From positions 1-26,079 of IMG/VR virus record IMGVR_UViG_3300030329_004662: 26,079 nucleotides of DNA, one strand, 5' to 3'. Positions 5,085-25,226 of this stretch are shown here, piece by piece. Position numbers and translations under genes: made by a program. The notes under the pieces were generated by a model. It was given only the letters and a program-made list of their open reading frames with translations. It made no database searches and was not told the DNA's origin. How positions within the stretch are numbered: the first letter of the stretch is position 1; every line of letters begins with the position of its first letter. This DNA comes from a virus.

Positions 5085-8000
5085 ATGTCTTTAGAGCAAC
5101 GTTTTTTAGAAATGCTAAATGAAAGGGAAGATTTTACTTCTACTCAATTAGCTCCAAAAAAATCCAAATGGGACCTCAGTCCTTCAGAAGCATTTGAAGA
5201 AAAAAATGTACCAAGTCCAGAATCAATAGATCAAAGAAATGTTGCATGGGATGTTTTAGGTAGTGCTTTGTGGGCATTTACAGATGAAATGATGTTTGGA
5301 GTTCCTGGAGCTGCTTATAAAAGAACTACTGGAGAAGAATTTTGGGAACCTGAGACTGTAGCAGGTAAAGTTTCAGCTGGTGTTGCAGGATTTGCAGGAT
5401 TTGCAGCTCCTGTTCCTTGGGCTCCATTAAAAGTTGGTGGGGTTATAGCAAAGGGTGCAGCAAAATTACCTATTAAAGCTGTTGGAAAGACATTATCATC
5501 TGCCACAAGAAAAGCAGTTAATGAAGTGACTGCTAAGGGAGTTAATGAAGGAGCTGAACAATTAGCTAGAAATCTTGGAAAAGCATCAACATCTTGGACT
5601 ATGATGGGAAGATGGGATTCAAAGGTAGCTAATAATTGGGAAAAATTTGCAGGTAGAAATATAGATGAATTGGTAGATTTTGCTGTTAGAAAGGGAGATG
5701 TTGGCTTAGATGATGCTAATATTGTAAGGAATGTCTTTAAAGCTAACTTCAAAGATAGGCCTATGATTGATATTATAGATGTTATAATGAGAAATAGACC
5801 TGATAGAACAGGTTTTGCTATGGGTTCAATGATACATGAAGCAACAATGTTTGGAGCCATAGATTCTATTATGGAAGGAGTACATTATTGGGGTGAAAAA
5901 GGTGAAGTTCCATATGACTGGACAGCTCCATTGTGGGGTATGGGTACAGGTGCAGCTTTTGGTGCATTAAAATTCTTCCCAGGACATGGTAAGCAAGCTT
6001 CAACTTGGCAAGACTTCAAAACTGGATGGACAGCTTGGGCTGGTAAAGATGTTTTTTCAAAAATGGATAAAAACAAATTAATGAATAATGCCAAGATACT
6101 AGGAAATGAATTAAAGAATGGAATGAATGGCAAATCCTCTTATTTACTTGAATTTCAAACAAAAGATGGCTTATTAAAAACAATAGATTTAACAAATCCT
6201 GAGTCTTATTTGCTAGGAATGGCTGATGATGAAGCTGTAGCTGTTTTAAGAAAGATTTTAAAAGGTAAGCAGCAAGAAATAGGTGGATTAATGATGAAAG
6301 AAGCCTTATGGGAAGATTTAAGATCATCAGGTAAAAATTGGGGCCATATGGTTGCTGGTAGTATGATTATGAATGCTAGAACTATTTTGGCTATTTCTCA
6401 AGGAGAAGATGTTCCTCTTGAAGATATTATGACAAGTGTATTTTTAGGTGCCTTTGTAAATAGAAAAGGTGGCGGTGGTAAGACTTATGATATAATGCAA
6501 AATGAAATGATGTCCTTAAGAAGATCTCTAAATACTCTTGGAGTTCATGGTAAGAATTATATAGATAGATTTCCAAGTGGAGCTTCTGGATCAAATGAGC
6601 CTTTAAATCCTCTTAATTATGGTGAGTTTAATGATGTTAGGCGTATCTTTAGAGATAAGGGTATAACATCTGATAATCCTGCTGCTGTTGAAACAATGAG
6701 TAAAGATGGATCCGAAAGTGTTGTAGTTGCTAGTGCTACAGCTAAAGGGGACTTTTCTTTATTTAATCAAATATATGCATTTGCTCATGGTGCTAGTGGA
6801 GAAAGGCATATCAAATCTAGAGATAAAATTACAGTTAATGAAGCAAGAGCAATAGAAGCAGAATTCAAAAAAGTTGAATATACTATTGATGGAAAGACTT
6901 TTAAATTAAATACTATAGATAATACCAGAAAAGCATTAGAGGACATTTCAGATAGACTTCATGATAGGGTAGAATCAGAAGCATTGCATAGTGTATATGA
7001 GGTCATGAGTGAGGGAGGGGTATCATACTATCAAGATGGAAAGCAAAGATTTTATCCCTCAAATGAGTATGGACTTCAAAATATAGGATTTATACCTAAA
7101 AGAGTTAAAATTAGCGATCACTTATATGCTATGGCAGAAAAAGGTCAATTAGAATGGCTTGTTGATAGCAATGGAAATAAGTTATCAGGAAAAGATGCTA
7201 GATATAAACTTACTGATTATCAAAGAAAATTAGATGCTTTATTTGATTTTATGTCAATAATACCTGGAAGAAGTAGTTATTATGAAGGCACTAAGTCAGC
7301 AGGTTATATAGAAACATCTGAAGGTTTAGGTAGAACTATAAAAGCTATGTTAACTAAAGAAAACGCTTTCAATAAAGGGTTTAAGATAAATAAGCCTTGG
7401 CTTAAATTTAAGATGGAAAATCTTGAAGATATGAAAATAGCTACAGCTGTTAGATATTTTAAGAAAAGTAAAGATCATATTTCAGAGACATTTGATACAA
7501 GTAGCGAATCTTGGAATGCTATTTTAGGTAGCTTGAGAGATGCTGGAATTTTAGTAAACTCTAAAGATGGATTAGCAAATGTTCTTATACAAAATCCTTT
7601 TAAAAATATAGAAATTAAAGTGCCAGAAGGAATGCAAGAGGGTGATCCTAAGTTAAATGAAGCTAAAAACTTTGTAAGTAATATAGTTAGCATATTGGGA
7701 GCAAAAGGTCAGCATAATGTATCTGAAACAGGAAAAAGCACAACCTCTTATGCTCAAGTAGAAAAACTTATTAATACTTTAAATAAATTTGGAATAACTA
7801 ATGATATAAAAGTATTTAATATGTTTGCTCAAGATGTTGTTTCAGATATTGCATATCAAAAAGTTATAGGCACAAAACTTACTCAGGGAGATGTTCACGT
7901 TATACAAGAATTGATGAATCTAGATACACCTATGGCATCTTATGGTACTCAAGGTGTTGCTAAAGGATTTATGATTAAAAAGTTAAAAAAGTCAAACTCT

Positions 8001-11000
8001 ATGAGTGAAGATTTACAAAATGCTATTGATGCATATAATAAAGAAGTTGATCTTTTAGTTAAAAGAGGTGAAAAGAAAGGCAAAGAAGGAGAAGGAAGTG
8101 TAATTAAAGTTATAGATGAAGCACCTCTTCTTACAGAGGTTCATAGTATAAAGAATTTGGCAGAAATGGTTAGAAGGGCTAGGGAAAAATCAGATATAAC
8201 TGCAACTGATCATATTGTTGATTTTATGAATGCATTAGATCCTAATGATAGTTTAAGAAATTCTTTGGCTGGATATATGCAAAAATATGGTGTAAGTGCT
8301 GATAGAATGCTTACTTGGTTAAGAGATCACAAGATTATAGAGCCAGAACCTGGACAAAGAGAAGGTGCTACCAAATATGTTATAAATATTGACAAAATGA
8401 AAGAAGGTAGAAAATTAAGAAATGATTTTGAAAAATGGCTTGAAATAGATTATGGTATTAGAGTTAAAGATATAGAACATATACAACATCAAGCTGAATA
8501 TGAAGCAAATGAACTTATGAATCAAAGCAGAAGAGATACTAAAAATAACTCAGTTATTACTGTTGATGGATTCTTTAAAAAGTGGTTTCCTAAATTTCAT
8601 AATAAAAAGCCATTTGGGACAAAAATAGAAGATTATGATACATATTTGACAGAAAAATTATATCTAGATATAGATCATAATATAAATAAATATGCGATAA
8701 GAGATATTATCAGAGATATGGAATTTGTAGATAGCAAAACTGGTAATAGAACTAGAGGCACAGATATATTAACAGGATGGGACTCTAATCCAAGAAATAG
8801 AGCCAGATATTTTGAGGCTGCTGCTGATATAATGCATGTTTTAAAGACAAGACTTACGACTGTATCTAAACATAAGATACAATATATTAAAGGAAAATTA
8901 GAAGCAACATCTCAAGTAAAAGCTCTTACAGGGCTAGATATCTTCCATACTAGTAGAGGGTTAGATTATATGATTGTAGATGGAACTATGCATGCTACAT
9001 TCGACACTAGCGGTAGGAATATAATTCAGAAAGCTTTAAATATTTTTGAATTAGAAAGCCCTAATATATCTAACAATAGAAGGAAAGAATTAGAAAATGC
9101 TAAAACACATTTTGATTTGTTATTAAATCAAATAGACTTTATAAAAGGAAGTGGTGTTTCTATTATTAGATTTGGAAATGCAAAAGCTGGTATAGCTATA
9201 CCTAAATTATATTCTACTAAAATAATTAATTTATTTAAAAATGAAATTTATGATGTCTATTATGAAAAAGCTAATCCTGCTCAAAAAGAAATATTAAATG
9301 AAGTTATGAATAGTCTTAAATCTGTTTCAGAGCTTCATAATGATAAAGCAGATCCTAATTATATAGAAGGAAATTACAAATCTTCACAATGGACAAAGGT
9401 TCATAAGCAAGCATATAGAACTTTAATATTAAAAGATATGCTTGTAGGTAAGGATAAAGATTTATATTTAGAATCTCTTTCTTGGTCTGAAAGCAAAACA
9501 AGAGATATGTTATCTAAAAGATTTAGCTTATTTGATACAAAATCAGCTAATAGAATTACTAAAGATTTAATAGATATAATTCCAAATGAAATGAAATATA
9601 AATTTGGATATGATCCTACATCAGAGTATAAAACTAGAGATTTTGGAATGGCTGTATGGGCAGATAAAAGACATGGAGGCATACAGGAAAGAATTGAATC
9701 AATTTTAGCAAAACAAAAATTAAGTTGGGATTCTTTAACTGGAGGAAGAGAGAATAGCACTGGATTTGATAGTATAGGCTTTATAAGTAAAAATATGAAA
9801 GATTTCCTTTCTGTTGTATCTGGAGATGCTTTGGGTGAAGCTTCTAGCTTTAAACCTATTATATCTTCATCTGGAAAAGATAATATTTTATTATTTGGAA
9901 AAACTCTTTTTGTATATGATCCTTTAATTCAAAAAGACATATTCGATAAGCAAGCTGGTTTAGATGTGTTATTAACAGAATCTGCAGATAAACTTCAATT
10001 GTCAACCAACCCTATAAATAAGCCCATTAAAGAGCTCTTAAATATGACAACTGCAGATTGGGGTACAGGCAATTATATGTTTAAAATAAAGAAAGAATCT
10101 CTTGGTTTAGTTGGATATCAAAAAGAAGGTCCAGCTAAGCAATCTTATTCTTTATGGAATTTTATGCAGAGCAAGGAATCAGCTGCAATATATGAAACAT
10201 TTTACTCTCAAAAGTTAGATAGATCTTTACAGGATGTTGCAAAAATATTATCAAATCCAGTATTAAAAAGTTCTGCATTTAGATTAATAAAAGGAATAGA
10301 TAGAGATATTCCTTTAGATGATTTATTTGGATCTGATAATTTTGCCAACTTTAGTAATCTAGCAAAATGGATGCATTTAAGCGAAAATTCAAGACCTGAA
10401 GCTTTTGGTGAATATATGCTTAATAATGCTTTAAAGAAGCAATTTATAGATCCTGTGTTAGATCAAAGTGCAATAATAGATGGGAAGCAATTTGGTGGCA
10501 AAACTGTATTAAGTCAATCATTTAAACTTAGAGATTTAGATGTAAGTACAGTGCCTAAGAATAATAGAAAGGGAGAAATTATACTTCCAGCTACAGATAT
10601 GAATCAAAGCATTCATTTCGGAGATAAAAATGTAAAAGTTAGGGTTGTTGATAGAAAAACAGGAAAAGATAAAGATGCTTATAAGGCATTTAAAGAAATA
10701 CTGCAAATAAATGATCCTAAAATGAAAGAAAAAGATATTAAGGAATTGTGGCTTGAAATAGCAAATCTAGGAGAATTGCATAGTATATTTAGTGATAAGA
10801 CCTTTATGGGTGAATTTATTAATATATATGATATAGGGATATTAACTACAAGATATCCTAGAACAAGGCCTAATGACTTAGCTTTATTGAGATTAAAAGG
10901 ATTTTTAAACAAAGAAGCAGGGAATCAAGCTATTGTTAATGATCTTGATGTATACAGTATTTTTGAAGGTGATTATGATTATGATAAAATAGACTATTTC

Positions 11001-13577
11001 TGGGCGCATGATAGAACTACATATAAACATGTTAATAGAACTAAGCAACATTGGTTAAATAATATTGATGTCAGTAAATATGAAGGAAAAGCCCCAACAG
11101 GACTTAGTGTTTTATCTAAAAATTCTACAATAAATGATGATGCATGGAATCAATTAGATGCTACTAATAGAGTTTTTTCTAAATCTATAGGAATAGCTCA
11201 AAAGACTCTTAGAATAGTTGAAAATTTATATGAATTAGCTGCTCCTTATACTGATATCAATACTAAGCAAACTCATAAAACAAAAAGAAGGCTTATAGAT
11301 AGAACGCTTCCAAATGGAGATCATATTGAGATTTTTATGGATTTAGGAACTGAATGGTATCATAGACAAGCTTTAGAGTCTCAGATAATGATAGATAGTT
11401 GGAAGGGGGTTGATAAAAGAATTGTAGATGATATTATGATGTATAGAAAAGAATTTTTATATCCACTAATGGATGATAAAATATCTATTACTTCTGATCA
11501 AATAACAGAATCTGTTCATCCAAATAATAGAAAGATAAGGCTTTTTAGAAAATATAAAAATGGAAAAGAAGTAGATTTAAATAAAGTTGATAAAGATTTA
11601 CTTAGCAGCATGCAAGATAATTTCAATAACTTCTCTGAGCTTCAAACTCAAATATATGAAGGAGGAGTAGGAAGAAGTCCTTATTATCATGATATGATAA
11701 ATAAATCTAGAGATTATTTTAGTCATCTAGAAAGTTTAGGTGATAATACTTTTTATAAACTTGTATCTAAATACGGATATAAGAATACTACTGAATCTCA
11801 ATATTTTGAAGATATGTTTAGTATGACTTCAGAAGTTAGATATGAATCTAAAAAGTTAATAGCTGATCCTAAAAGTGATTTTTCTATGGATAATGTTAGA
11901 TTAGATCCTGTTTCACATATGAAAATGGCTCCAAAAGCTAGTCCTTTTGATCAAGTAGTTATTAATAAAGCAGAAGCTATATCTCAAGGAAGAGAAGGCT
12001 CTGTTTTAGAAAGAACATATAGAAAAATATTAGACAGAGATCCTTTAGGTCATAAATATACTGATGAAATGATATTGATGGGAGATGAATTAAAACTTCA
12101 TAATAGAATAATGGATTTAGCTATGGTACAAGCTCCATGGGCTACTGCTGAAATGCAAGAATTAATTCCTAAAGCTGTGACTGATATTAAGAGTTCAAAA
12201 AGAAAGATACTTGGCTTAATTAATATTAGAGATAGAGTAAAATTTAGCACTAAAATACCTTGGAAGCTAAAGCAAGCAAGATTAAAAGCTCTTGAAGCAG
12301 AAATTAAAAAAATTGAATATAAAATGGGTCCTATGCTTACAAAGGATTGGTTTAAAGGTAAAGAACCTGAAAATTTCCCTGATGTTAATCTAGTTGATAT
12401 CTATAGAAATAAAGATATAAGAGAAGCTACTATACAATATTATACTTTGCATTCATTTGGTAATTTATTTACAGCAAAAAACCCTAATCAAATGACTAAA
12501 GATATAAGAGAATTAAGGCAAATGATTGGAGTTGAATATAAAGAAATAAACACACTTCAAAGCAGCACTGGATATGGTCATTTAACTATGAGTAAAGCTC
12601 AAATTGAAAAGTTTAGATTAGATCCATATACAAGCAGATATACATTAGAAGATGCAATACAATTAAAGTTACAAGAAGGTTTTAGAAATCATGGAGCTTC
12701 ATTTTTATTTGAATTTGCAACGCCTAAATATGGAGGTGAAGTCAATTTAGGTGTTTATAATGGAAGAGTAATGCCTACTGTTATTAAGCCTTCAGCTAAC
12801 TATAAGAGAATTTTAAGATTTATGTTAGAAAGTATGGAAACTGCATATAGAGAAAAAACTGGAAGAGGTGATCTGTGGAAGAATTTATTAACTAAAATAG
12901 CAGAAAGAGATGCTCATTTTTCTAATATATTCAGTGGAGACCTGCAATATATCCCTACTGATGGAGCGCAAATAAATAGTATGTTTAAGAATGCTCCAGA
13001 TGTTCCTAATAGATTGAATGCTTATATAGGTATGAGATATGGAGATATTACTTTTAGAAAGAATATATTACATAGGCATGTATTTGGACTTGGCCATGAA
13101 TACGATACCAATATATCTTTTTTAAATGAATTGCATGCGAATGCCAAGAGAATGCATGATCCTACTCAAAGAAGAGAAATACGAGAAAGAACTGAAGGAA
13201 TATCAAAATTGCATCAATTAACAATGGAGGGTGGATATATGAATCCTATATCATATCATTTATTAATAGAGCAATATAAAAAAGAATTGGGAGATTTAGG
13301 ATTTGGAAAAGAATCTATTGCAGGTGGCTATGATAAGTGGGGTAATCAAATACAAATTAATCCAGCTACAGCTAACCATGGATTAACTGGTTTAATTACT
13401 GGAGATAAAGGAGTTTCTTTTGATCCTATGAGAATGATGTCGCCTTATAAGATCAACATGTTGTTAAAGTTTATGGAGCAGGGCGCCAATGTTGCATCTA
13501 CTCGTAAAGAGAATGGAGAAAGTTGGAAAACAGAATGGAAATCAGAAATAGAAGGTGGAAGAATATGCAAACCTTAA
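5085..13577 (+). CDS. Giant 2830-residue ejection/internal virion (polyvalent-type) protein
   Basis: One uninterrupted frame of 2830 codons. The N-terminal ~470 residues hold several hydrophobic or Gly/Ala-rich stretches (about 93-125, 275-300 and 420-460), suited to membrane insertion or channel formation. The rest is almost entirely charged helical sequence. The beginning (VAWDVLGSALWAFTDEMMFG followed by GVPGAAYKR) recalls the starts of giant phage proteins thought to be ejected with the DNA. No lysozyme or transglycosylase motif is evident. The Gly-rich RKGGGGKT near residue 465 does not fit a Walker A. T7 gp16 (about 1318 residues) is the functional analogue by position: the largest protein, next to last or last in the ejection block. 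A weak AGGAAT precedes the ATG. The frame being real is nearly certain; the ejection role is inferred from size, order and hydrophobic N-terminus. Confidence 0.7.
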   Translation: MSLEQRFLEMLNEREDFTSTQLAPKKSKWDLSPSEAFEEKNVPSPESIDQRNVAWDVLGSALWAFTDEMMFGVPGAAYKRTTGEEFWEPETVAGKVSAGVAGFAGFAAPVPWAPLKVGGVIAKGAAKLPIKAVGKTLSSATRKAVNEVTAKGVNEGAEQLARNLGKASTSWTMMGRWDSKVANNWEKFAGRNIDELVDFAVRKGDVGLDDANIVRNVFKANFKDRPMIDIIDVIMRNRPDRTGFAMGSMIHEATMFGAIDSIMEGVHYWGEKGEVPYDWTAPLWGMGTGAAFGALKFFPGHGKQASTWQDFKTGWTAWAGKDVFSKMDKNKLMNNAKILGNELKNGMNGKSSYLLEFQTKDGLLKTIDLTNPESYLLGMADDEAVAVLRKILKGKQQEIGGLMMKEALWEDLRSSGKNWGHMVAGSMIMNARTILAISQGEDVPLEDIMTSVFLGAFVNRKGGGGKTYDIMQNEMMSLRRSLNTLGVHGKNYIDRFPSGASGSNEPLNPLNYGEFNDVRRIFRDKGITSDNPAAVETMSKDGSESVVVASATAKGDFSLFNQIYAFAHGASGERHIKSRDKITVNEARAIEAEFKKVEYTIDGKTFKLNTIDNTRKALEDISDRLHDRVESEALHSVYEVMSEGGVSYYQDGKQRFYPSNEYGLQNIGFIPKRVKISDHLYAMAEKGQLEWLVDSNGNKLSGKDARYKLTDYQRKLDALFDFMSIIPGRSSYYEGTKSAGYIETSEGLGRTIKAMLTKENAFNKGFKINKPWLKFKMENLEDMKIATAVRYFKKSKDHISETFDTSSESWNAILGSLRDAGILVNSKDGLANVLIQNPFKNIEIKVPEGMQEGDPKLNEAKNFVSNIVSILGAKGQHNVSETGKSTTSYAQVEKLINTLNKFGITNDIKVFNMFAQDVVSDIAYQKVIGTKLTQGDVHVIQELMNLDTPMASYGTQGVAKGFMIKKLKKSNSMSEDLQNAIDAYNKEVDLLVKRGEKKGKEGEGSVIKVIDEAPLLTEVHSIKNLAEMVRRAREKSDITATDHIVDFMNALDPNDSLRNSLAGYMQKYGVSADRMLTWLRDHKIIEPEPGQREGATKYVINIDKMKEGRKLRNDFEKWLEIDYGIRVKDIEHIQHQAEYEANELMNQSRRDTKNNSVITVDGFFKKWFPKFHNKKPFGTKIEDYDTYLTEKLYLDIDHNINKYAIRDIIRDMEFVDSKTGNRTRGTDILTGWDSNPRNRARYFEAAADIMHVLKTRLTTVSKHKIQYIKGKLEATSQVKALTGLDIFHTSRGLDYMIVDGTMHATFDTSGRNIIQKALNIFELESPNISNNRRKELENAKTHFDLLLNQIDFIKGSGVSIIRFGNAKAGIAIPKLYSTKIINLFKNEIYDVYYEKANPAQKEILNEVMNSLKSVSELHNDKADPNYIEGNYKSSQWTKVHKQAYRTLILKDMLVGKDKDLYLESLSWSESKTRDMLSKRFSLFDTKSANRITKDLIDIIPNEMKYKFGYDPTSEYKTRDFGMAVWADKRHGGIQERIESILAKQKLSWDSLTGGRENSTGFDSIGFISKNMKDFLSVVSGDALGEASSFKPIISSSGKDNILLFGKTLFVYDPLIQKDIFDKQAGLDVLLTESADKLQLSTNPINKPIKELLNMTTADWGTGNYMFKIKKESLGLVGYQKEGPAKQSYSLWNFMQSKESAAIYETFYSQKLDRSLQDVAKILSNPVLKSSAFRLIKGIDRDIPLDDLFGSDNFANFSNLAKWMHLSENSRPEAFGEYMLNNALKKQFIDPVLDQSAIIDGKQFGGKTVLSQSFKLRDLDVSTVPKNNRKGEIILPATDMNQSIHFGDKNVKVRVVDRKTGKDKDAYKAFKEILQINDPKMKEKDIKELWLEIANLGELHSIFSDKTFMGEFINIYDIGILTTRYPRTRPNDLALLRLKGFLNKEAGNQAIVNDLDVYSIFEGDYDYDKIDYFWAHDRTTYKHVNRTKQHWLNNIDVSKYEGKAPTGLSVLSKNSTINDDAWNQLDATNRVFSKSIGIAQKTLRIVENLYELAAPYTDINTKQTHKTKRRLIDRTLPNGDHIEIFMDLGTEWYHRQALESQIMIDSWKGVDKRIVDDIMMYRKEFLYPLMDDKISITSDQITESVHPNNRKIRLFRKYKNGKEVDLNKVDKDLLSSMQDNFNNFSELQTQIYEGGVGRSPYYHDMINKSRDYFSHLESLGDNTFYKLVSKYGYKNTTESQYFEDMFSMTSEVRYESKKLIADPKSDFSMDNVRLDPVSHMKMAPKASPFDQVVINKAEAISQGREGSVLERTYRKILDRDPLGHKYTDEMILMGDELKLHNRIMDLAMVQAPWATAEMQELIPKAVTDIKSSKRKILGLINIRDRVKFSTKIPWKLKQARLKALEAEIKKIEYKMGPMLTKDWFKGKEPENFPDVNLVDIYRNKDIREATIQYYTLHSFGNLFTAKNPNQMTKDIRELRQMIGVEYKEINTLQSSTGYGHLTMSKAQIEKFRLDPYTSRYTLEDAIQLKLQEGFRNHGASFLFEFATPKYGGEVNLGVYNGRVMPTVIKPSANYKRILRFMLESMETAYREKTGRGDLWKNLLTKIAERDAHFSNIFSGDLQYIPTDGAQINSMFKNAPDVPNRLNAYIGMRYGDITFRKNILHRHVFGLGHEYDTNISFLNELHANAKRMHDPTQRREIRERTEGISKLHQLTMEGGYMNPISYHLLIEQYKKELGDLGFGKESIAGGYDKWGNQIQINPATANHGLTGLITGDKGVSFDPMRMMSPYKINMLLKFMEQGANVASTRKENGESWKTEWKSEIEGGRICKP

Positions 13578-17649: not shown

Positions 17650-17803
17650 CAGGAATATCTTCTTTTTCTAATCCAAAGCTAGGCATAGAATTATAAGTAA
17701 TTATTTCATACTCACAAGTATTACTATTATATTTCTTTTGCCACACTTGTTTGCTTTTGGGGCAATACTTCATTACAGAATTACCCCATGTCTTTTTATT
17801 CAT
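17627..17803 (-). CDS. Small protein of the replication operon, function unknown
   Basis: A 58-residue protein starting MNKKTWGNSVMKYC. A GTG four codons further upstream would extend the frame, but GAGGAG lies 5 bases before the ATG at 17803, so that ATG is chosen. The start overlaps the end of the primase-helicase by 8 bases. The middle (YCPKSKQVWQKKYNSNTCEY) has two Cys 16 residues apart, not a clear zinc site. The C-terminal IITYNSMPSFGLEKEDIPDG is reminiscent of small phage zinc-binding proteins that keep a second Cys pair, which is missing here. Confidence 0.6.
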   Translation of the reverse strand: MNKKTWGNSVMKYCPKSKQVWQKKYNSNTCEYEIITYNSMPSFGLEKEDIPDGKRISG

Positions 17804-19559
17804 AATGCTCCTCACATAGTTTAATGTTTACATTGTCAGGTCTTAATTTAACCCACATATGTTCTCTTTCCCTATTCTTATCACTTTTAAGTTCTAGGAA
17901 AGCAATAGATCCATCTTTAGCTCTATAAGGCTTTAAAGATAACAATTTATTAGCATTATATGCTATTCTAAACGATCCTCTAGCACTAGATAAATCCATA
18001 CCATCCTTAAAAGATGATTTATTTATTTCACTTACTGCAAATACTATTATATTATGCTTAACAGCAAGTTCCATAAGAGCTTGTGATGCTTCTTCACATT
18101 TCATATTCATATCTTTATGTTTAGATCTAAATAATCCCATGTGATCTACAACAACAAGTTCTGGCTTTCTTGGCATCATAGAAATTCTCTTTTCTAATTC
18201 AAATGGATATGGCGAAGAATAATCTACTGTAAGCCAATTAAATTTCTTATCTTGGCCATTCTTTAAATTTTTATAATGATTCTTTAGATCTTTTTCTGAC
18301 CATCCATTTTCAATCATTACAAATCTAGACCATATTTGTCTAGAACTCATTTCCATTTCAACAAAATAAGTATTTCTTTTCAATGCAACCATCCAATTTT
18401 GAAGTAACATTGTTTTCATACTTGCAGGTGGAGCTTGAAGGATTACTACTTCACCTGGATATATCGGAAAGGTTTGACCATATAAAGATCCTATATCTAT
18501 AGGTTTTACATCATCTTTATAGAATTGTATAAGTTGATCTTCCATTTGAGTAGATGTTAGAGCTCTTGTATCTACCTTAGATTTATATAACTTACACTTA
18601 CTTGAGCAAAATTTACTCATTATATTATCATTGCATCCATATCTGTTGCCTTCTCCACCATGGCCTTCATAACAAGACTTCACAATACTATCCATTTCTT
18701 TTTCAGAAAATCTATAATCAGGTCTATCAACTTTCTGTCTCCATGATTCCATAACTAATCTTACCATATTTTCTGGATATAACCATCTAAAATGAGCTGC
18801 TAATCTTAATGCTACTGCATGTCTTTGACCTATATTGGTTCCATTAATCATTCTTTGAATGCATGTATAATTAGAAGGATCTGGATTATATAGTCCATTT
18901 TCTTCAGTAACTATAGGTTTATATTCTTTCTTGTTTTCTTCTATAACTTCAAAGACAATGTTGTGTTTATCAACTCTATAGTTGTGTAAGAATTTATTAG
19001 GTTGTTGTGCTCTATTAATAATTAACTCTTTAGCATTAGTATGAAATAACCAATCTTTTTCTATATCTACTTTATATAGTCCAGATTTTGTATTCTTTGT
19101 ATTAGTTACTCTTATTAATCTAGTTTTATCAGTAACTGATGAATCTGCATAATTAAATATACCTTTATCAGTTAACAATTTCTTTACATATATATGTAGA
19201 TTAGCACTAGGATTATATTTAAAAGCTTTTTCAGGTATTCCAAAATGAAATCCTCTACCACTAAAGTATAATGCATAAAAGCACTCCATTTGATCTAATA
19301 ATATAGATAATTTCTGTGCCTTTTCAATTGCTTTATCAAACTTAGGGCCATCTACATCTAATATGAATTCTTCTGGCATATATATACATCCATTAAAGCC
19401 AGATAATGTTTTGTTAGCAGAATAATATTCTACTACACTTTTATCGTAGTCATATAAAGAACAAAAGGTATCGTGATGAGTACCCATAAATTCTCCATAT
19501 TTATTTGCATCATGAAAATGATGTCTTTTATTTATTCCAAAAGCAAATTCCTTTATCAT
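17796..19559 (-). CDS. Bifunctional primase-helicase (AEP primase + RecA-like helicase)
   Basis: A 587-residue replication enzyme. The N-terminal part has archaeo-eukaryotic primase motifs: D68-x-D70 (FILDVDG), the sGxGxH motif S100-G-R-G-F-H105, and a basic strand at ~147-163 (RLIRVTNTKNTKSGLYKV). A Cys cluster C296, C309, C318, C322 follows, suited to Zn or Fe-S, as at the end of many AEP primase modules. From ~355 a RecA/DnaB-type ATPase begins with Walker A A376-PPASM-K382-T383 and Walker B 467-472 (PELVVVD). The usual Gly of the Walker A is replaced by Ala-Pro-Pro-Ala-Ser-Met. It would lay primers and unwind DNA at the phage fork. AAAGGAGA precedes the ATG. The neighbours SSB, Sak4-like ATPase and nuclease agree with this. 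Confidence 0.85.
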   Translation of the reverse strand: MIKEFAFGINKRHHFHDANKYGEFMGTHHDTFCSLYDYDKSVVEYYSANKTLSGFNGCIYMPEEFILDVDGPKFDKAIEKAQKLSILLDQMECFYALYFSGRGFHFGIPEKAFKYNPSANLHIYVKKLLTDKGIFNYADSSVTDKTRLIRVTNTKNTKSGLYKVDIEKDWLFHTNAKELIINRAQQPNKFLHNYRVDKHNIVFEVIEENKKEYKPIVTEENGLYNPDPSNYTCIQRMINGTNIGQRHAVALRLAAHFRWLYPENMVRLVMESWRQKVDRPDYRFSEKEMDSIVKSCYEGHGGEGNRYGCNDNIMSKFCSSKCKLYKSKVDTRALTSTQMEDQLIQFYKDDVKPIDIGSLYGQTFPIYPGEVVILQAPPASMKTMLLQNWMVALKRNTYFVEMEMSSRQIWSRFVMIENGWSEKDLKNHYKNLKNGQDKKFNWLTVDYSSPYPFELEKRISMMPRKPELVVVDHMGLFRSKHKDMNMKCEEASQALMELAVKHNIIVFAVSEINKSSFKDGMDLSSARGSFRIAYNANKLLSLKPYRAKDGSIAFLELKSDKNREREHMWVKLRPDNVNIKLCEEHYE

Positions 19560-19624: not shown

Positions 19625-20182
19625 TTACCAAGGTATTGAGTCATCAGTTATAGCTGATGTACTAGTTGTATCCATCACACCATTAGCTGCTGGTGTTTCT
19701 TTTGCAACTACATAATCGTTATAATACTTTTCAGCTTGCTCTTTCCAGAACATTATATCATTAGCATTAAACTCTTCAAGATCATTCTTGAATTCAGTAG
19801 GCGCAACATTTGGTAATACCTCAGTGTACTTTTTATCAGGTTTCTTATAAAAGAATACATTGATTTGTTTTCCTGCAAGTTCTTCTGGTGTATCATCTAT
19901 TGTTACAATAGCATCACCTTCATCAGATGTAGATACACTTTTAATACCTGCATTAGCAAATCTAAAGAGTCTACCTATAGCAAACTCTTCACCATCTTTA
20001 CCATTTTTAGCCCATATTCTCATAGATAGTTTGTCATATTCTGCATATTCTTTAAACCATACATCAATAAACTTACTATCTTGAAATGTACCATATTTGG
20101 CTTTTAATACTGTTAAAGTATGCCATCCTGGAGGAAACTTATCCTCAAATTTGGCTCCTTTTTTTACTTTTAGCGTTCTCAT
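19625..20182 (-). CDS. Single-stranded DNA-binding-like protein with SSB-type acidic tip
   Basis: A 185-residue protein. The first ~120 residues are beta-rich with aromatic residues (GWHTLTVLKAKYGTF, FIDVWFKEY, INVFFYKKPDKKY), consistent with an OB-like DNA-binding core. A flexible Ala/Thr/Ser tail of about 30 residues ends in ITDDSIPW, very close to the DDDIPF tip by which bacterial SSB recruits partner enzymes. It starts within the stop of the Sak4-like ATPase gene (ATGA overlap) with AAGGAGG upstream, so the two are translated together, as often seen for recombinase/SSB pairs. The primase-helicase follows. Known analogues bind ssDNA at the fork; I infer the same here. The family is not one of the classical SSBs by eye. 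Confidence 0.65.
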   Translation of the reverse strand: MRTLKVKKGAKFEDKFPPGWHTLTVLKAKYGTFQDSKFIDVWFKEYAEYDKLSMRIWAKNGKDGEEFAIGRLFRFANAGIKSVSTSDEGDAIVTIDDTPEELAGKQINVFFYKKPDKKYTEVLPNVAPTEFKNDLEEFNANDIMFWKEQAEKYYNDYVVAKETPAANGVMDTTSTSAITDDSIPW

Positions 20183-21096
20183 TCAACACCTCCTTGTATA
20201 TTATTAGTTTCTCCTCTTAGATAAGCTACTTGATTATCTACAGGTATTTCTCCATTGGATTCTGTCATACTCTCACCATTGCTAGAATGAATGGTTTGAG
20301 TTTCGCCATCTTTATCAGCTAATTCTCCACCATCTTCAATTGCTTCATCTACTACATTGGTTGCTAGTGTTTTAAGACTATAAGTCTTTCCACTACCAGG
20401 TGAACCTATGATAAGTATCTTAGAGCCATCAAAGCCTCTTTTTGCAGCAGCTTCTAATACTAAGCTATAGTCTTGATCCATTTCTGCATCTAATAATTGA
20501 GTTCTATCTTTAGCATGATCATATGTTTCAGTTCTATTTGTTATCCATATATATTTTCTATTGCCATCTTTATCAGTAATAGTTTTAGTATAGAATACAA
20601 AGTCAAACCATTTAGATATATCCTCTTTAGTAGATCCATCTATATATGGTTGAAGTCTATTTTCTCCAGTATCCATAGTTTGAGTTTTAGAATGACAAGT
20701 ACAAATTACATTGCCTGGGATTCTAGTTATAAACTCTAAACATGTATCTAGTTTATTCTTTAATCTACCCCATTCTTGTAATTTCATTTTACCTGTTCTA
20801 TCAGTTAAAGTTCTCATAAACTTTTTAGATAACTCAGAGAATGTATCAATTACTAAAGCATCTACAACTAGACCTTCTTTAGCTACAACTTTAGTAGTAA
20901 CTTGATCTATTTCTAAACCTTCACCAAGCTTTACTTTCTCTTTAATAGATTCATTTTTATATATCTTTCCAATAGTAGCTTGAAACTCATCCCAACTAGA
21001 CGGGGTGAGCATCGGAAGATTAAAGTTCTTTTGTATTGTCTCTTTAGAGCCTAGAGTTTGAGATCCATGCTCTACGTCAAAGTATAATATATTCAT
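20179..21096 (-). CDS. Sak4-like RecA ATPase with C-terminally relocated Walker A (circular permutation)
   Basis: A 305-residue P-loop ATPase of the phage Sak4/AAA_24 type, which promotes annealing or recombination of phage DNA. The motif order is rearranged. The protein begins with the strand that normally follows the P-loop helix (MNILYFDVEHGS, E9). Walker B is at 80-84 (ALVID84), the sensor strand at 129-138 (NVICTCHSKTQ), the fDxV-like strand at 163-170, and the YIWITNR...AKDR strand at 182-198. The Walker A, G231-SPGSG-K237-T238, comes only then, with its helix to ~249, followed by an acidic Ser/Asn tail. In usual members the Walker A is at residues ~5-15. No P-loop lies upstream of the ATG, which has AAAGGA before it. 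Downstream neighbour is the SSB-like gene (4-base overlap). Confidence 0.8.
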   Translation of the reverse strand: MNILYFDVEHGSQTLGSKETIQKNFNLPMLTPSSWDEFQATIGKIYKNESIKEKVKLGEGLEIDQVTTKVVAKEGLVVDALVIDTFSELSKKFMRTLTDRTGKMKLQEWGRLKNKLDTCLEFITRIPGNVICTCHSKTQTMDTGENRLQPYIDGSTKEDISKWFDFVFYTKTITDKDGNRKYIWITNRTETYDHAKDRTQLLDAEMDQDYSLVLEAAAKRGFDGSKILIIGSPGSGKTYSLKTLATNVVDEAIEDGGELADKDGETQTIHSSNGESMTESNGEIPVDNQVAYLRGETNNIQGGVE

Positions 21097-21162: not shown

Positions 21163-21822
21163 CTATTTTCCTAACATTAAAGTTGGAAAGTTGAAATAAA
21201 ATTCTTTGTTAAAAGGCTGCCCTGTAATTACCTTTCTAACAGAGTTGGCTATAAAGCTACCGCTCATATTAGAACAGTAGCTTGTAGCCTTTGCATTACA
21301 TGGTTCTGGATCGCCTTCGCTATCAGGATACCATGTTTTCTTATACGCAGCAAGTTTAGGTTTTAAGAATGTATATTGCTGATAATGTTCAGCTCCCATC
21401 CTACCATCTATTAAAAGCTCAGGTTTCAAGTGAGGCTTACATGTAATTTCTACTGCGTCAAGTCTTGATTTCATGTCATCAAATCCTAATATTATTATAT
21501 TTCTCATAAAAGGATTATGTTTGTATGACTCTTCATTAAATCTTCCATATACTGGTTCAGTAACGCAATGAGGATTTATATACTTTATAATATCTTTTAA
21601 TGCCTCTACTTTAGATTTATCAATATCTTTAAAGTTATATTGACTGACGCCTATATTTTCAATACCTACTGTATCCATATCATATAAATACATTTGCGGT
21701 GCACCACATCTGGCAAGTTGAGTGGCTGCAGAGCTACCAATAGCTCCACAACCAAGTATATGAAAGGCATAATCACTTATCTCACTGCCTATTATATCTG
21801 AAAATCTCTCATTAATACTCAT
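21163..21822 (-). CDS. ThiF/E1-like ubiquitin-activating (adenylating) enzyme
   Basis: A 219-residue single-domain E1/ThiF-fold enzyme. It has the nucleotide-binding G24-C-G-A-I-G29 after a short strand (YAFHILGCGAIGSS), the acidic D48-M-D50 that ends the second strand, N56 and Q61 of the N..RQ region, K71 in KSKVEAL, and D115-D116 in ILGFDDMKSR. C175 (EGDPEPCNAKAT) and C183 are the candidate thioester Cys. The Arg before Gln in the usual NxxRQ is Ser60. Such enzymes adenylate the C-terminal Gly of a ubiquitin-like protein, and a Ubl ending in Gly-Gly is encoded in the same operon. The ATG overlaps the JAMM stop (TAATG) with AAAGGAG upstream. Alternatives such as a MoeB/ThiF for cofactor sulfur are unlikely, since no other cofactor genes are present. 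Confidence 0.85.
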   Translation of the reverse strand: MSINERFSDIIGSEISDYAFHILGCGAIGSSAATQLARCGAPQMYLYDMDTVGIENIGVSQYNFKDIDKSKVEALKDIIKYINPHCVTEPVYGRFNEESYKHNPFMRNIIILGFDDMKSRLDAVEITCKPHLKPELLIDGRMGAEHYQQYTFLKPKLAAYKKTWYPDSEGDPEPCNAKATSYCSNMSGSFIANSVRKVITGQPFNKEFYFNFPTLMLGK

Positions 21823-22694
21823 TATAACTCCTTTCTAGGTTGTATAAATGTAGCAGCTCCATCTGATGTCATTACAACATCAATAACTTTTGCTTTACTT
21901 GGAACAACTATTTTCCATTCATAATTTGATTGTCTAGCTTCTTTTTCTAATGCTCTCATTTCTTTCAAGAAAGTATTTATATGAATAGTTCCTTCCATGC
22001 AACGATCCACTAAATCATCAACATTCTGATATAATTCTTGAAATGTTGGATCATATGATGCAAGATTCATAAAGGTATCTATACTGTCATAAGGCTCATC
22101 CCATAATGCAGATTGCCCTATATTTCTTTGTTTAGAATAATTATTCCAACCAAGATGAGTATTTATTACTTTCATTTCTTTTACACACATATCCTCTACT
22201 TCTTTAATCATTTTCTTAGATAGTTTGGTATCTGGTTTATCTGTAATATTCAACTCAACATCTTGAGCTACTTTTAGTGGCTTCCAAATACTTACTCTGA
22301 ATTTATATTCTTGTTTAAGATTAACTACTAATGCAAAGCTCATATCACCTTCATTAAACTCTTCAATAGCTGCATGATCAGTAGAACTCCAGAATGCGTC
22401 CATAGTATGATGTGAATGCCACCATAAGAATCTATAATTTATTCCAGGATGTTCTTTTTCCATATAAATTGCTTCTTTTGTATAATATTTAGCAAGAGCA
22501 TCTTTATCTATAATAGTATTACTACTAGATATTTCTTGCTTAAGTATTACTGGTCTCATTACATTCCAATCTCCATCATTATCTTTCATCATAATAGCCA
22601 TACCACCTATTTCTGATCTATAATTATCATAAGCTATTCTAGCATAATCTATTATTTTATCCCAATTTTCTTGAGATATATTAAATTCATTCAT
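21822..22694 (-). CDS. JAB/JAMM metalloprotease (deubiquitinase-like)
   Basis: A 290-residue protein with a full JAMM zinc site: E28 in SEIGGM, H93-S-H95 in FLWWHSHHTM, and S103-x-x-D106 in WSSTDH, matching E...HxHx7SxxD. The catalytic domain spans about residues 1-155. A helical extension and a C-terminal beta segment (about 235-290, IVVPSKAKVIDVVMTSDG) follow, absent from minimal JAB proteins. JAMM enzymes cleave isopeptide bonds after the Gly-Gly of ubiquitin-like proteins, or trim Ubl precursors. Because the Ubl here already ends in Gly-Gly, deconjugation is the likelier job. It overlaps the upstream candidate-E2 gene by 8 bases and the E1 gene by 1, so all three are probably made together. 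AAAGGA precedes the ATG. Confidence 0.88.
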   Translation of the reverse strand: MNEFNISQENWDKIIDYARIAYDNYRSEIGGMAIMMKDNDGDWNVMRPVILKQEISSSNTIIDKDALAKYYTKEAIYMEKEHPGINYRFLWWHSHHTMDAFWSSTDHAAIEEFNEGDMSFALVVNLKQEYKFRVSIWKPLKVAQDVELNITDKPDTKLSKKMIKEVEDMCVKEMKVINTHLGWNNYSKQRNIGQSALWDEPYDSIDTFMNLASYDPTFQELYQNVDDLVDRCMEGTIHINTFLKEMRALEKEARQSNYEWKIVVPSKAKVIDVVMTSDGAATFIQPRKEL

Positions 22695-24069
22695 TTCTAT
22701 TCCTTTCCGTATTAGTTATAAATTCTAATGCTTGTCTTTCTACCCATTGCATTGTTCTTTCTTCATCAGTCATATCTTCAGTGTCTCCAATTGACTCAGT
22801 ATTGCTTAACACAGGTATCTCTTCATCTATTTCATATTGTTGAACTTCTTTAACACTTCGTTCCATATTTTCATACCTATAATGAAATGCTAACCTATAT
22901 AGTTCATCATGAGAACCATCTATATAAAATAGATTTGTTAATCTATCTTCATCTATATTAACTACATTATTGTAATAAGAACATTTGTCTCTTAAAGCAC
23001 ATTGTATATCATTACACGTAGTATCGTTCATTATTGCATACTCTTGTTTATCAGATCCAAGCTTTTCTATAGATTTAGGGACTCCACATCTATCTGAATT
23101 CTTAATATCTGGATAAGCATATGTTAATCCTTTATAATTAGCTTGATCAGTTAACCATTTAGGCATTCCAAAGAACAATTTATCAGGTTTATTATGAGGA
23201 TGTGTTCTGTTTTTGTGGAATTTACTAATCCACTGCTCTAAATATACACCCATAGCTTGAAGATTAAAGTTATAAGCAGAATCTGTTATTTGATTTGTAA
23301 AATCTCCTAAACATACTGGTTGTAAATCAGCACTATCTCTATATGAAGAGATATATGTGAACTTTAATTCAGGACTTGGAGATAAATATTCTCCAACTAT
23401 TTTATTATTATATATATTAGGAGGCTTTATATTTCCATCTTTAGAACTACAAAGTTTATTAATATGCTTTATTAAATCTATTCTATATTCTAAAGCAACA
23501 GGATATAAAGGTATTTCTGCTATAATTCCATCATCATCTATAATACTCATTGTATAGTCTCTCATTACTATTTTTATAACATATTGAGGTTTAAATTCAT
23601 CTGCTGTATCTACTAATATATTAACAAGAAATTTACTACTATCTACTATTTCGTGTAATATACTAAGTTCTGATTGTATTTTTTCTTTTAAGCTATTAAA
23701 ACTATCAACTACCATTTGAGTATTATCTTGCATTGCTATACCATCAGCTCTCATTCTAGACAAATCAGTATTAATACGACCTAACATTTCTCTCATTTGA
23801 TTATGAGTATACTTTCTATTGTCTATTCTTTTAAAGAATTGTTCTGTGCCACTATATTTCATGTCCCATCTAAGAACAGACTTTTGATAAGCTTCTCTTA
23901 TCTGATCTCCTCCACCTGGAGACCATCTAAATGTTTTAGTACATTTAAGATTAGTGCCATAATAGCTATTAAATCTATTAATTTGTTCTAAAATAGTTGC
24001 TTGAGGTCCTAACAGGACTACTTCAGCAATCTCAGTCAGATTCGGATTGTACTGGTGTATCGGTATCAT
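22687..24069 (-). CDS. Candidate divergent E2-like protein of the Ubl cassette
   Basis: A 460-residue protein directly upstream of, and overlapping, the JAMM gene. Residues ~60-150 are helical/coiled. A beta-rich part (~160-245) leads to PELKFTYISSYRDSADLQ and then Q250-P-V-C253-L-G-D-F, followed by an amphipathic helix (~265-285). The order strands, Pro, strand, loop, (I/V)CLG, helix is that of UBC-type E2 domains, where this Cys carries the Ubl thioester; the usual HPN/HPH before it is not clear. The C-terminal part has a Cys set (C328, C352, C357, C363), possibly a zinc or Fe-S site, and an acidic tail. Its ATG has AAAGGAGG upstream. That it belongs to the cassette is well supported by overlap; the E2 call is inference. 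Confidence 0.5.
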   Translation of the reverse strand: MIPIHQYNPNLTEIAEVVLLGPQATILEQINRFNSYYGTNLKCTKTFRWSPGGGDQIREAYQKSVLRWDMKYSGTEQFFKRIDNRKYTHNQMREMLGRINTDLSRMRADGIAMQDNTQMVVDSFNSLKEKIQSELSILHEIVDSSKFLVNILVDTADEFKPQYVIKIVMRDYTMSIIDDDGIIAEIPLYPVALEYRIDLIKHINKLCSSKDGNIKPPNIYNNKIVGEYLSPSPELKFTYISSYRDSADLQPVCLGDFTNQITDSAYNFNLQAMGVYLEQWISKFHKNRTHPHNKPDKLFFGMPKWLTDQANYKGLTYAYPDIKNSDRCGVPKSIEKLGSDKQEYAIMNDTTCNDIQCALRDKCSYYNNVVNIDEDRLTNLFYIDGSHDELYRLAFHYRYENMERSVKEVQQYEIDEEIPVLSNTESIGDTEDMTDEERTMQWVERQALEFITNTERNRNE

Positions 24070-24313
24070 TATTATCCTCCTTTTCTTTTATATAGTCACC
24101 ATCAAAATATCTTCTAATGATTTCTTTTATAGTACTATATCTTATATCATTAGCTTCATTTCTATAGCCATATGTTTCATAACTATCACATATTTCACCA
24201 CAATGCTTTAAAGCTCTCTCTGCATTTAATAATTTATATCTTAGATCAGCTAAGGTAGCTTCTCTTTTATTTAATTCTTCTAAAAATACTTGTATTTGTT
24301 CTTCGTTCATCAT
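24032..24313 (-). CDS. Small coiled-coil protein, function unknown
   Basis: A 93-residue protein with a long helix (residues ~3-40, EEQIQVFLEELNKREATLAD) predicted to be coiled coil, a Tyr-rich middle and an acidic tail. Two Met codons in tandem could start it; the first overlaps the previous stop (ATGA). Its 3' end overlaps the candidate-E2 gene by 38 bases, so the two are tightly coupled. No family recognised; a role as adaptor in the Ubl cassette is only a guess from position. Confidence 0.65.
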   Translation of the reverse strand: MMNEEQIQVFLEELNKREATLADLRYKLLNAERALKHCGEICDSYETYGYRNEANDIRYSTIKEIIRRYFDGDYIKEKEDNNDTDTPVQSESD

Positions 24314-24486
24314 TTACCTCTACTTTCATTTTGCATTTGATCAATGATTTTATCGCTTATTTCTTCTGTTTCAGCTTCTATAATACCTGCCCATAATTCA
24401 GCGGCTATTTTACGATCAGCATGTATCGCTTTCTTTAATTCATTCATAGTTTTAATTATTTCGTCTAATTGTTGCTGTAAATTCAT
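24310..24486 (-). CDS. Small helical protein, function unknown
   Basis: A 58-codon frame starting MNLQQQLDEIIKTMNELKK, wholly helical and charged, with AAGGAGA before the ATG. The stop overlaps the next start (ATGA), so it is part of the operon. It resembles the following 93-residue protein in being a short coiled coil, but no family is recognised. Confidence 0.6.
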   Translation of the reverse strand: MNLQQQLDEIIKTMNELKKAIHADRKIAAELWAGIIEAETEEISDKIIDQMQNESRGK

Positions 24487-24495
24487 AATTTCTCC

Positions 24496-24657
24496 TTATT
24501 TTACTGGTGTTAGCCCTCTCTTTAGACATTGATAGTTGTATCTTTGTCTTTTACTGATCATACTGGGCTTAAAATGAGTATAATCATTCTCTTTAGGATT
24601 TTGTGCTACTCCTATATCTGTTCTTGTTATAAAATGTACATATTCTGTTAATCTCAT
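24496..24657 (-). CDS. Small basic protein, function unknown
   Basis: A 53-codon frame starting MRLTEYVHFITRTDIGVA, Tyr- and Arg-rich, with AAAGGA 6 bases before the ATG. It is the first gene after the structured element between it and the Ubl gene; its leader therefore contains that element's 3' side. No family or motif recognised. Confidence 0.55.
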   Translation of the reverse strand: MRLTEYVHFITRTDIGVAQNPKENDYTHFKPSMISKRQRYNYQCLKRGLTPVK

Positions 24658-24670
24658 GGTTATCCTTTCT

Positions 24671-24739
24671 ATTAAATGAGAGAATGCCCTGCGTTTTTTA
24701 TGCGAGTGTCTCCTCGGGGACTTACATCTCTCATCTAAT
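24671..24739 (-). ncRNA. Candidate structured RNA element between the Ubl gene and the next small gene
   Basis: The 95-base gap after the Ubl gene is closed by a 12-bp stem: 24671-24682 with 24728-24739. Eleven pairs are Watson-Crick; the twelfth (24675/24735) pairs as G-U only in the leftward transcript, which favours a function in that RNA. The enclosed 45 bases are locally GC-rich and can form CGAG/CUCG (24703-24716) or a GUC/GAC stem. The element ends 14 bases before the next start codon. There is no U-run right after the stem, so it is not a classical terminator. It could be a processing site, small RNA or leader element. I could not match it to a known class; no hammerhead core is present. 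Confidence 0.4.
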
Positions 24740-24752
24740 CATCCGCTATTTA

Positions 24753-24953
24753 CTAACCACCAGTTTTGTTATTAGTAACCCATGCTACTAATGATCCATC
24801 AGTTAGCTCTGTTGAGTTAACAGCATCTGTGCCATTAACTGATACAGCAGCACCTAATGGAATATCTAGCTCATTTCTTAATGCTTCTATATTAGTTGAA
24901 TTAACTGCTGTTTCAACAAAGTTAGCACCTCTTAATACTTTAATTGTAGCCAT
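24753..24953 (-). CDS. Ubiquitin-like (beta-grasp) protein with free C-terminal Gly-Gly
   Basis: A 66-residue protein with a beta-grasp pattern: first strand TIKVLRGANF, second strand VETAVN, helix NIEALRNELDIP, strand AAVSVNGTD, then LTDGSLVAWVTNNKTGG with the last strand before a flexible tail. The NG turn and the D-G-S-x-V motif are typical of ThiS/MoaD and of bacterial Ubls such as PRTRC protein C. The chain ends exactly at Gly65-Gly66, so it needs no trimming before E1 adenylation. AAGGAG inside the end of the upstream gene precedes the ATG, and the stop of that gene abuts it. The E1, JAMM and candidate E2 are encoded downstream in the same operon. ThiS/MoaD-like sulfur carrier is the alternative, but there are no cofactor genes. 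Confidence 0.8.
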   Translation of the reverse strand: MATIKVLRGANFVETAVNSTNIEALRNELDIPLGAAVSVNGTDAVNSTELTDGSLVAWVTNNKTGG

Positions 24954-25226
24954 TTATGACTCCTTTCTTAGTTTAGTTAAGTATACTTTACCTCTCCAAT
25001 CAAACAAATGTCCTTCACCATATAGTAAATACATTTGATTAAAAGCTTCTCCAAATGATAAGCTATCAAAGCCTTGCCATTTAGGTTCATCAACTACTAC
25101 CACAGGAACTTCTTTAGTTATAATTCTTTGTGGTTCAGCGGTTGGTTTATTAATTGAATTGATTGCAAATATCATTAATAATAGAACAATTAGCAATTCT
25201 CTCCAATATCTTTTAATACTCTTCAT
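24954..25226 (-). CDS. Small membrane-anchored protein, function unknown
   Basis: A 90-residue protein with a short basic start and a hydrophobic segment at about residues 9-25 (RELLIVLLLMIFAINSI), either an anchor or a signal, followed by a Pro/Val linker. A C-terminal domain of about 40 residues holds SFGEAFNQMYLLYG and then FDWRGKVYLTKLRKES. The F-G-x-A-F ... F-x-W-x-G-x-x-Y pattern recurs at the end of many small phage proteins, in my recollection. The start overlaps the preceding stop (ATGA) and the stop abuts the Ubl start. A lysis role (spanin-like) is possible given the single anchor, but its place next to the Ubl could mean otherwise. Confidence 0.6.
   Translation of the reverse strand: MKSIKRYWRELLIVLLLMIFAINSINKPTAEPQRIITKEVPVVVVDEPKWQGFDSLSFGEAFNQMYLLYGEGHLFDWRGKVYLTKLRKES

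Follow-up and report, generated by a model that had tools for sequence, protein, structure and literature searches.

Complete bacterial sets of a ubiquitin-like protein (Ubl), an activating enzyme (E1), a conjugating enzyme (E2) and a deubiquitinating enzyme lie in defence islands, as do the Bil and CBASS systems, or on plasmids, as does PRTRC. A cassette apparently holding the same four functions lies at positions 21163–24953, on the minus strand, of the 26,079-base IMG/VR virus record IMGVR_UViG_3300030329_004662, a fragment that we refer to as the window. This raises the question of whether a phage possesses a Ubl conjugation pathway of its own and, if so, what that pathway might act upon. 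We consider it probable that the cassette encodes a complete conjugation pathway, expressed as part of the phage's replication operon.

A four-gene set and its recurrence in phages

The left part of the window is transcribed rightwards and includes open reading frames (ORFs) of 2830 and 923 residues; the right part is transcribed leftwards and contains the cassette. Read 5′ to 3′ on this one strand, to which all cassette coordinates below refer, its genes encode a Ubl of 66 residues (24753–24953), an E2-like protein of 460 residues (22687–24069), a JAMM metalloprotease of 290 residues (21822–22694) and an E1/ThiF-fold enzyme of 219 residues with a single adenylation domain (21163–21822). From these coordinates, the E2-like and JAMM genes overlap by 8 nucleotides and the JAMM and E1 genes by 1 nucleotide, and an AAAGGAG/AAGGAG-type Shine–Dalgarno-like sequence is present at each cassette gene. 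Three small ORFs separate the Ubl and E2-like genes in the window; in many relatives the two genes are adjacent. Genes, positions, strand and overlaps are all as described in the initial annotation, which had been made from the DNA alone.

A search for relatives with the E2-like protein alone found none, and tblastn of the E2-like and JAMM proteins against named phages gave no matches; relatives were therefore gathered through the E1. E1 queries returned 47 loci. An E1 profile pointed to 393 related stretches, and the 80 best of them were taken forward; removal of duplicates left 91 distinct related phage loci. The JAMM gene abuts the E1 gene in 85 of the 91. The E2-like gene, counted where at least 1.2 kb lies upstream of the JAMM gene, was present in all 71 such loci. 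The Ubl was counted in loci with an E2-like gene and room before it, and a Ubl with the sequence KxGG was present in every one (67/67). It lies before the E2-like gene in 66 of them, the exception being locus L079, in which it sits between the E2-like and JAMM genes. We looked specifically for phages that keep the E1 and JAMM proteins and lack the Ubl, and found none among these 67 loci. The cassette proposed for this single stretch is thus confirmed and is more widespread than had been claimed, the four-gene set recurring across 91 distinct viral loci. Such recurrence, with the same catalytic residues, is far beyond chance.

Bacterial genomes yielded no close cassette, but one E1 of 32% identity, in a Spirochaetia metagenome-assembled genome, and short partial matches. 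A long relative encodes an SU10-like capsid protein, a P22-like portal and TerL, and the group therefore belongs to the tailed phages. One 89.8-kb contig (G001, carrying L138–L142) carries a pair of primases, and its set of capsid-, portal- and terminase-sized ORFs occurs twice; it therefore appears to be two related genomes of ∼44 kb joined together, likely a chimeric or concatemeric assembly.

The predicted enzymes and their proposed order of action

Neither the Ubl nor the E2-like protein matched a Pfam, NCBIfam or PHROG family, including in Pfam scans of all members of their alignments, and their sequence profiles gave chance-level matches only against the PDB. Structure was more informative for the Ubl. 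Its AlphaFold model (predicted local distance difference test, pLDDT, 84.7) is a single domain with the element order of a beta-grasp fold. The top Foldseek matches were Mth1743, SUMO, Caldiarchaeum ubiquitin, ThiS and MoaD, and VIA aligned the model to ThiS with a Z-score of 8.3, its structural neighbours including MoaD, TtuB, SUMO, NEDD8 and ubiquitin. The predicted fold is the beta-grasp foreseen in the initial annotation, and, as the chain ends N-K-T-G-G-stop, the window protein combines this fold with the C-terminal Gly-Gly expected of a ubiquitin-like protein.

Beyond the Gly-Gly, between 1 and 126 further residues are present in 41 of the 67 Ubls. An exact KxGG, a freely varying tail and a JAMM gene in every case are what a Ubl made as a precursor and then trimmed would show; the window Ubl needs no trimming, because it already ends in GG. 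In L002 and L063 an internal NKTGG is followed by a further 117–126 residues, and the Ubls encoded at L084 674–1111 and L090 2081–2518 carry a 60-residue extension after KTGG.

The E1 matched the Pfam family ThiF (PF00899) at 6.4e-21 with 75 bits, against a cut-off of 28.1, and a profile of 25 members matched UBA6, UBA5, MccB, MoeB, ThiF, TcdA and Cap2 in the PDB. Its nucleotide-binding motif, GCGAIG in the window (21736–21753), follows a GxGxIG pattern that is near-invariant in relatives, and residues R6, D48, K71, D115 and C175 are each conserved in 89 of 89. From the alignments, C175 (codon 21298–21300) is predicted to be the cysteine that captures the Ubl: C183 is equally invariant among the phage proteins, yet it is C175 alone that lines up with the cysteine conserved in the PRTRC E1s and in 7/8 Cap2-type E1s. 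The motif, D48 and candidate Cys175 of the initial annotation are thus all in place, in a protein whose membership of the ThiF/E1 superfamily was confirmed.

The JAMM protein scored 2.6e-4 and 21.3 bits against Pfam Prok-JAB, below the cut-off of 25. A 19-member profile matched Rpn11 (3.9e-7) and the Rpn11 homologue of Caldiarchaeum (8.8e-7), an archaeal, ubiquitin-linked protein, with the HxH...SxxD residues aligned. The E...HxHx7SxxD zinc site that marks JAMM/MPN+ proteins is complete: H93, H95, S103 and D106 lie in the motif HSHHTMDAFWSSTD (22377–22418), and the codon of E28 is at 22611–22613. E28 is kept in 82 of 84 relatives and the other four in 84 of 84, so that all five zinc residues previously claimed are present and near-invariant. 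The predicted role of the enzyme is Ubl maturation and deconjugation.

The E2-like protein comprises a helical N-terminus, a UBC-like core (residues 112–312, 23134–23736, the part used for profile comparison) and a Cys4 module. We obtained one AlphaFold model, in which most blocks of residues 125–300 have a pLDDT > 75, with dips to 62–67 near residues 211–220 and 241–250. The top of the VIA list for this model consists mostly of UBC-type E2s (UbcH10, Ubc12, UBE2S and Ube2W), matched with Z-scores of 5.0–5.8 over residues 125–306 and, for most, across 110–130 residues; the list also holds the UEV domain of TSG101 and, lower, the E2 of Cap2. Foldseek gave only weak matches, to TSG101/Vps23 UEV domains. 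Because the Z-scores are moderate and the Foldseek matches weak, we regard a UBC/E2 fold, as modelled, as likely rather than proven.

The predicted catalytic residue is C253 (23311–23313, codon checked), which is a cysteine in 71 of 71 relatives although the family averages only 25% column identity. Among the other conserved residues are P238 (70/71) and P291 (71/71), and the motif reads [HFY]-P-[YF]-...-C, with the proline in 70 and the histidine in 45 of 71. An invariant cysteine within a conserved motif, and UBC-fold E2s at the head of the structural list for the model, strengthen what had been put forward as a candidate E2. The 460-residue protein might instead be a non-enzymatic adaptor or a substrate of the Ubl, as would suit its moderate structural scores, its lack of a sequence family and a profile link to the PRTRC E2 of P = 0.016 over 20 columns only. 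We think this unlikely, since C253 lies between the beta sheet and the last helices, where the active site of an E2 is expected, and has been kept while most of the protein diverges.

Following the E2 core, cysteines C328, C352, C357 and C363 (22981–23088) form a likely zinc site. The cluster is complete in 56 of 71 relatives; C328 and C352 are lost together in the other 15, with C363 lost too in 13, and C357 is kept in all 71. Joint loss of this kind is expected of a zinc site. As a zinc module, the cluster could serve to bind targets or the Ubl.

By analogy with established enzyme families, a full sequence of chemical steps can be proposed. The JAMM protein would trim the residues that follow the Gly-Gly, a step needed in the relatives with a tail and not in the window. 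The E1 would adenylate the Gly-Gly terminus and capture the Ubl as a thioester on C175, from which the Ubl would be transferred to C253 of the E2-like protein. With no separate E3 gene in the cassette, the E2-like protein would then join the Ubl to amine groups on proteins of the phage or the host, its Cys4 module perhaps recruiting the targets, and the JAMM protein would take the tag off again.

The Ubl and E1 might alternatively belong to a sulphur-carrier system, in which a thiocarboxylated Ubl would donate sulphur to tRNA or a cofactor in the manner of ThiS, MoaD and TtuB, the JAMM protein serving for maturation only. Consistent with this, carriers of the ThiS and TtuB type are the nearest structural neighbours of the Ubl model, the E1 profile matches ThiF and MoeB, and the annotation ‘thiamine biosynthesis protein’ is in use among phages. 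A sulphur carrier needs no E2, however, and an E2-like protein with an invariant cysteine accompanies the Ubl in 71/71 loci; moreover, the E1 scores far below the ThiF and MoeB equivalog cut-offs, and none of the window genes scanned could be recognised as encoding a rhodanese, ThiI/TtuA or a cofactor enzyme. We therefore regard sulphur transfer as very improbable.

Related cassettes in Crassvirales, plasmids and defence systems

E1 homologues of ∼30% identity are encoded by crAss001, by further Bacteroides phages and by phages of Flavobacterium, and many of them carry the thiamine annotation. In crAss001, the neighbouring gp79 (225 residues), gp78 (444 residues, unnamed), gp77 (‘metalloprotease’) and gp76 (ThiF) show the same apparent order, Ubl-like, E2-like, JAMM and E1, in the replication region, and FpV4 and the bajarodcaudo virus match this arrangement. 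The JAMM active-site residues of the window are invariant in these three phages as well. In the E1 tree, which has some long branches and was midpoint-rooted for drawing only, the Crassvirales E1s form the sister clade of the window group (joint clade 100/98), and the two together are separate from PRTRC and Cap2-type E1s.

The correspondence of the remaining two proteins is less direct. The product of gp79 begins with a beta-grasp-like part, after which come ∼130 residues, and has KSGA in place of a GG, whereas the FpV4 protein reads KSGG. Profile comparison of the window E2-like protein and Ubl with the gp78 and gp79 families detected nothing, and the link between the window E2-like protein and Crassvirales is therefore structure-based: its model matched crAss-like phage proteins in BFVD (ctDAq1 at 8.8e-4 and cr128_1 at 2.6e-3), and cr128_1 carries the E1 as well. 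Crassvirales phages carry a related cassette, to judge by their E1 and JAMM proteins and the gene order in crAss001; that gp78 and gp79 correspond to the E2-like protein and the Ubl is what we infer. Our search of the literature, which covered neither preprints nor subscription papers and so gives no ground for asserting priority, found no paper describing a Ubl–E1–E2–JAMM cassette in phages, whether crAss-like or not.

Plasmid PRTRC is the closest known system to the window cassette. Genome searches with PF14461 and PF14460 served solely to supply comparators of the Cap2 and PRTRC types. In 12 PRTRC plasmid regions the order is C (Ubl), F, B (E2), A (JAMM) and ThiF (E1), although some regions lack A, C or ThiF or leave it without a name; the Ubl–E2–JAMM–E1 order on one strand is thus that of the four functions in the window. 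Profile comparison linked the E1s (P = 1.6e-11) and the JAMM protein with protein A (P = 1.2e-5). For the E2-like protein, the best of six comparisons was with PRTRC protein B, with the VC-G cysteine aligned, the other PRTRC proteins giving P-values of 0.22–0.78. A weak pairwise score of this kind is uninformative, because known relatives, E2_D and E2_B, were also left unlinked (P = 0.29).

The differences are nevertheless substantial. PRTRC protein C typically ends in TKG, often with a tail after it, whereas the phage Ubl has KxGG, and the two are not alike by profile. No PRTRC protein F is recognisable in the window cassette, and comparison of the E2 N-terminus with protein F, as a possible fusion, gave nothing. 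At twice the length of the PRTRC E2, the window protein has its helical N-terminus and Cys4 module in addition. For those PRTRC models that gave any hit, the curated NCBIfam cut-offs were missed by a wide margin (PRTRC_ThiF, 15.7 against 144.75 bits; PRTRC_A, 13.8 against 101.8 bits), and for this reason we do not class the cassette as PRTRC. It is nevertheless organised like a PRTRC cassette and, by analogy, would work like one.

Bil shares the gene content, with Ubl, E2, JAMM and E1 all present. Its BilA, however, has two Ubl domains, BilD has two adenylation domains and a Cys domain, and BilB has a CEHH motif (PMC11354881). The single-domain Ubl and single-domain E1 of the window rule out Bil, and no conserved E/H/H follows C253. 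With type II CBASS the cassette shares a JAMM protein and a related E1 adenylation domain (PADLOC E1-E2, 1.8e-15); Cap2 is an E2–E1 fusion, whereas the window has separate genes for the two, which rules out CBASS as well, and in the E1 tree the Cap2 type stands apart as a clade of its own. No CD-NTase match was found among the window proteins scanned. In phages, the passages of Iyer et al. (2006; PMC1779556) considered here describe the TAPI/TAPK pair only, a Ubl-like domain and a JAB protease of lambda and T1 tails. That pair lies among tail-assembly genes with neither E1 nor E2, whereas the window cassette has both and lies in a replication operon.

The replication operon and the possible target

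Downstream of the cassette on the minus strand are a Sak4-like ATPase (20179–21096; phrog_124 at 3e-23, in two stretches), a protein earlier called SSB (19625–20182) and a primase-helicase (17796–19559; helicase phrog_19 at 3e-24 and primase phrog_16345 at 5e-24). Where at least 4.5 kb of sequence follows the E1 gene, a primase-helicase lies downstream of the cassette, on the same strand and within 5 kb, in 59 of 59 loci. Of these 59, 27 have a homologue of the window's SSB-type protein downstream of the E1, and 13 have a Sak4 of the window type. The replication operon of the initial annotation thus stands as regards the primase-helicase and the Sak4-like ATPase; the identification of SSB found no significant Pfam or PHROG match. 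Several of the PRTRC regions have ParB or dnaN upstream, and two have ssb immediately downstream (L158 and L167, from Dyella and Rhodanobacter); L157, from Sulfuricystis, is preceded by dnaN. No ParB match was found among the proteins scanned in the window, itself a fragment.

What the pathway acts upon can be considered in this light. The initial annotation had suggested that it may tag virion, replication or host proteins, or counter Ubl-based host defence. The pathway may be real and yet directed against host defences or competing phages, by tagging or capping host defence proteins, occupying host Bil or CBASS, or tagging the virion parts of rivals. Bil, with the same gene content, acts in phage conflict (PMC11354881), and the CBASS proteins Cap2 and Cap3 conjugate in anti-phage defence, so that a role in conflict is conceivable, and we hold it as a doubtful but serious alternative. 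Unlike accessory anti-defence genes, the cassette is present in nearly every relative and always in the primase-helicase operon, and on PRTRC plasmids too the cassette neighbours ParB and, in some cases, ssb or dnaN. Because of this near-universal retention in a replication operon, together with the replication and partition neighbours on plasmids, we consider a target connected with replication more likely than an accessory role against defences. Our best guess is a component of the replication machinery, whether of the phage or of the host. We propose, tentatively, that reversible, E3-less Ubl conjugation on the phage replisome may be a core part of replication in a large group of tailed phages, Crassvirales among them, comparable to the modification of PCNA by SUMO and ubiquitin and sharing its outline with PRTRC.

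Several points weigh against this proposal and against the pathway from which it starts. The E2 fold was called from one model with a mean pLDDT of 71.7, a moderate best Z-score of 5.8 and Foldseek E-values > 0.1 against the PDB; the usual His-Pro-Asn of E2s is replaced by [HFY]-P-[YF], with a longer gap to the cysteine; the Ubl and the E2-like protein are without a sequence-level match to any family; no E3 was recognised in the cassette; and the replication target is suggested by gene position only.

If the proposal is true, ubiquitin-like tagging would be part of the basic biology of phages themselves, and their cassettes would offer a tractable route to the role of those of PRTRC. The labels ‘thiamine biosynthesis protein’, ‘metalloprotease’ and ‘hypothetical’ in crAss-like phages would then be re-read.

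The remaining features of the window concern its smaller genes and flanks. The Sak4-like ATPase is circularly permuted, its Walker B half coming first and the Walker A P-loop (GSPGSGKT) lying near the C-terminus; this layout recurs in more than 20 relatives (among them L001, L059, L079, L094 and L121), and the equivalent in L010 has the normal order. The interval between the Ubl and E2-like genes holds, all on the minus strand, ORFs of 53 residues (24496–24657, with a homologue in L001 near 10943), 58 residues (24310–24486, no family) and, just 5′ of the E2-like gene, 93 residues (24032–24313, no family). Abutting the Ubl gene is that of a 90-residue protein with a hydrophobic N-terminal segment (24954–25226, minus strand), which may be part of the conjugation system; its homologues lie directly 5′ of the Ubl in many relatives.

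The giant 2830-residue ORF (5085–13577, plus strand) has no Pfam or PHROG match and no clear similarity to the compared part of crAss001 gp47. This protein and crAss001 TerL, queried against the long relatives, gave no match; relatives carry ORFs of 3182–3444 residues at a comparable place, with no detectable similarity. Among the other rightward genes is that of a GNAT acetyltransferase (569–1033, plus strand; phrog_1249 at 2e-18).

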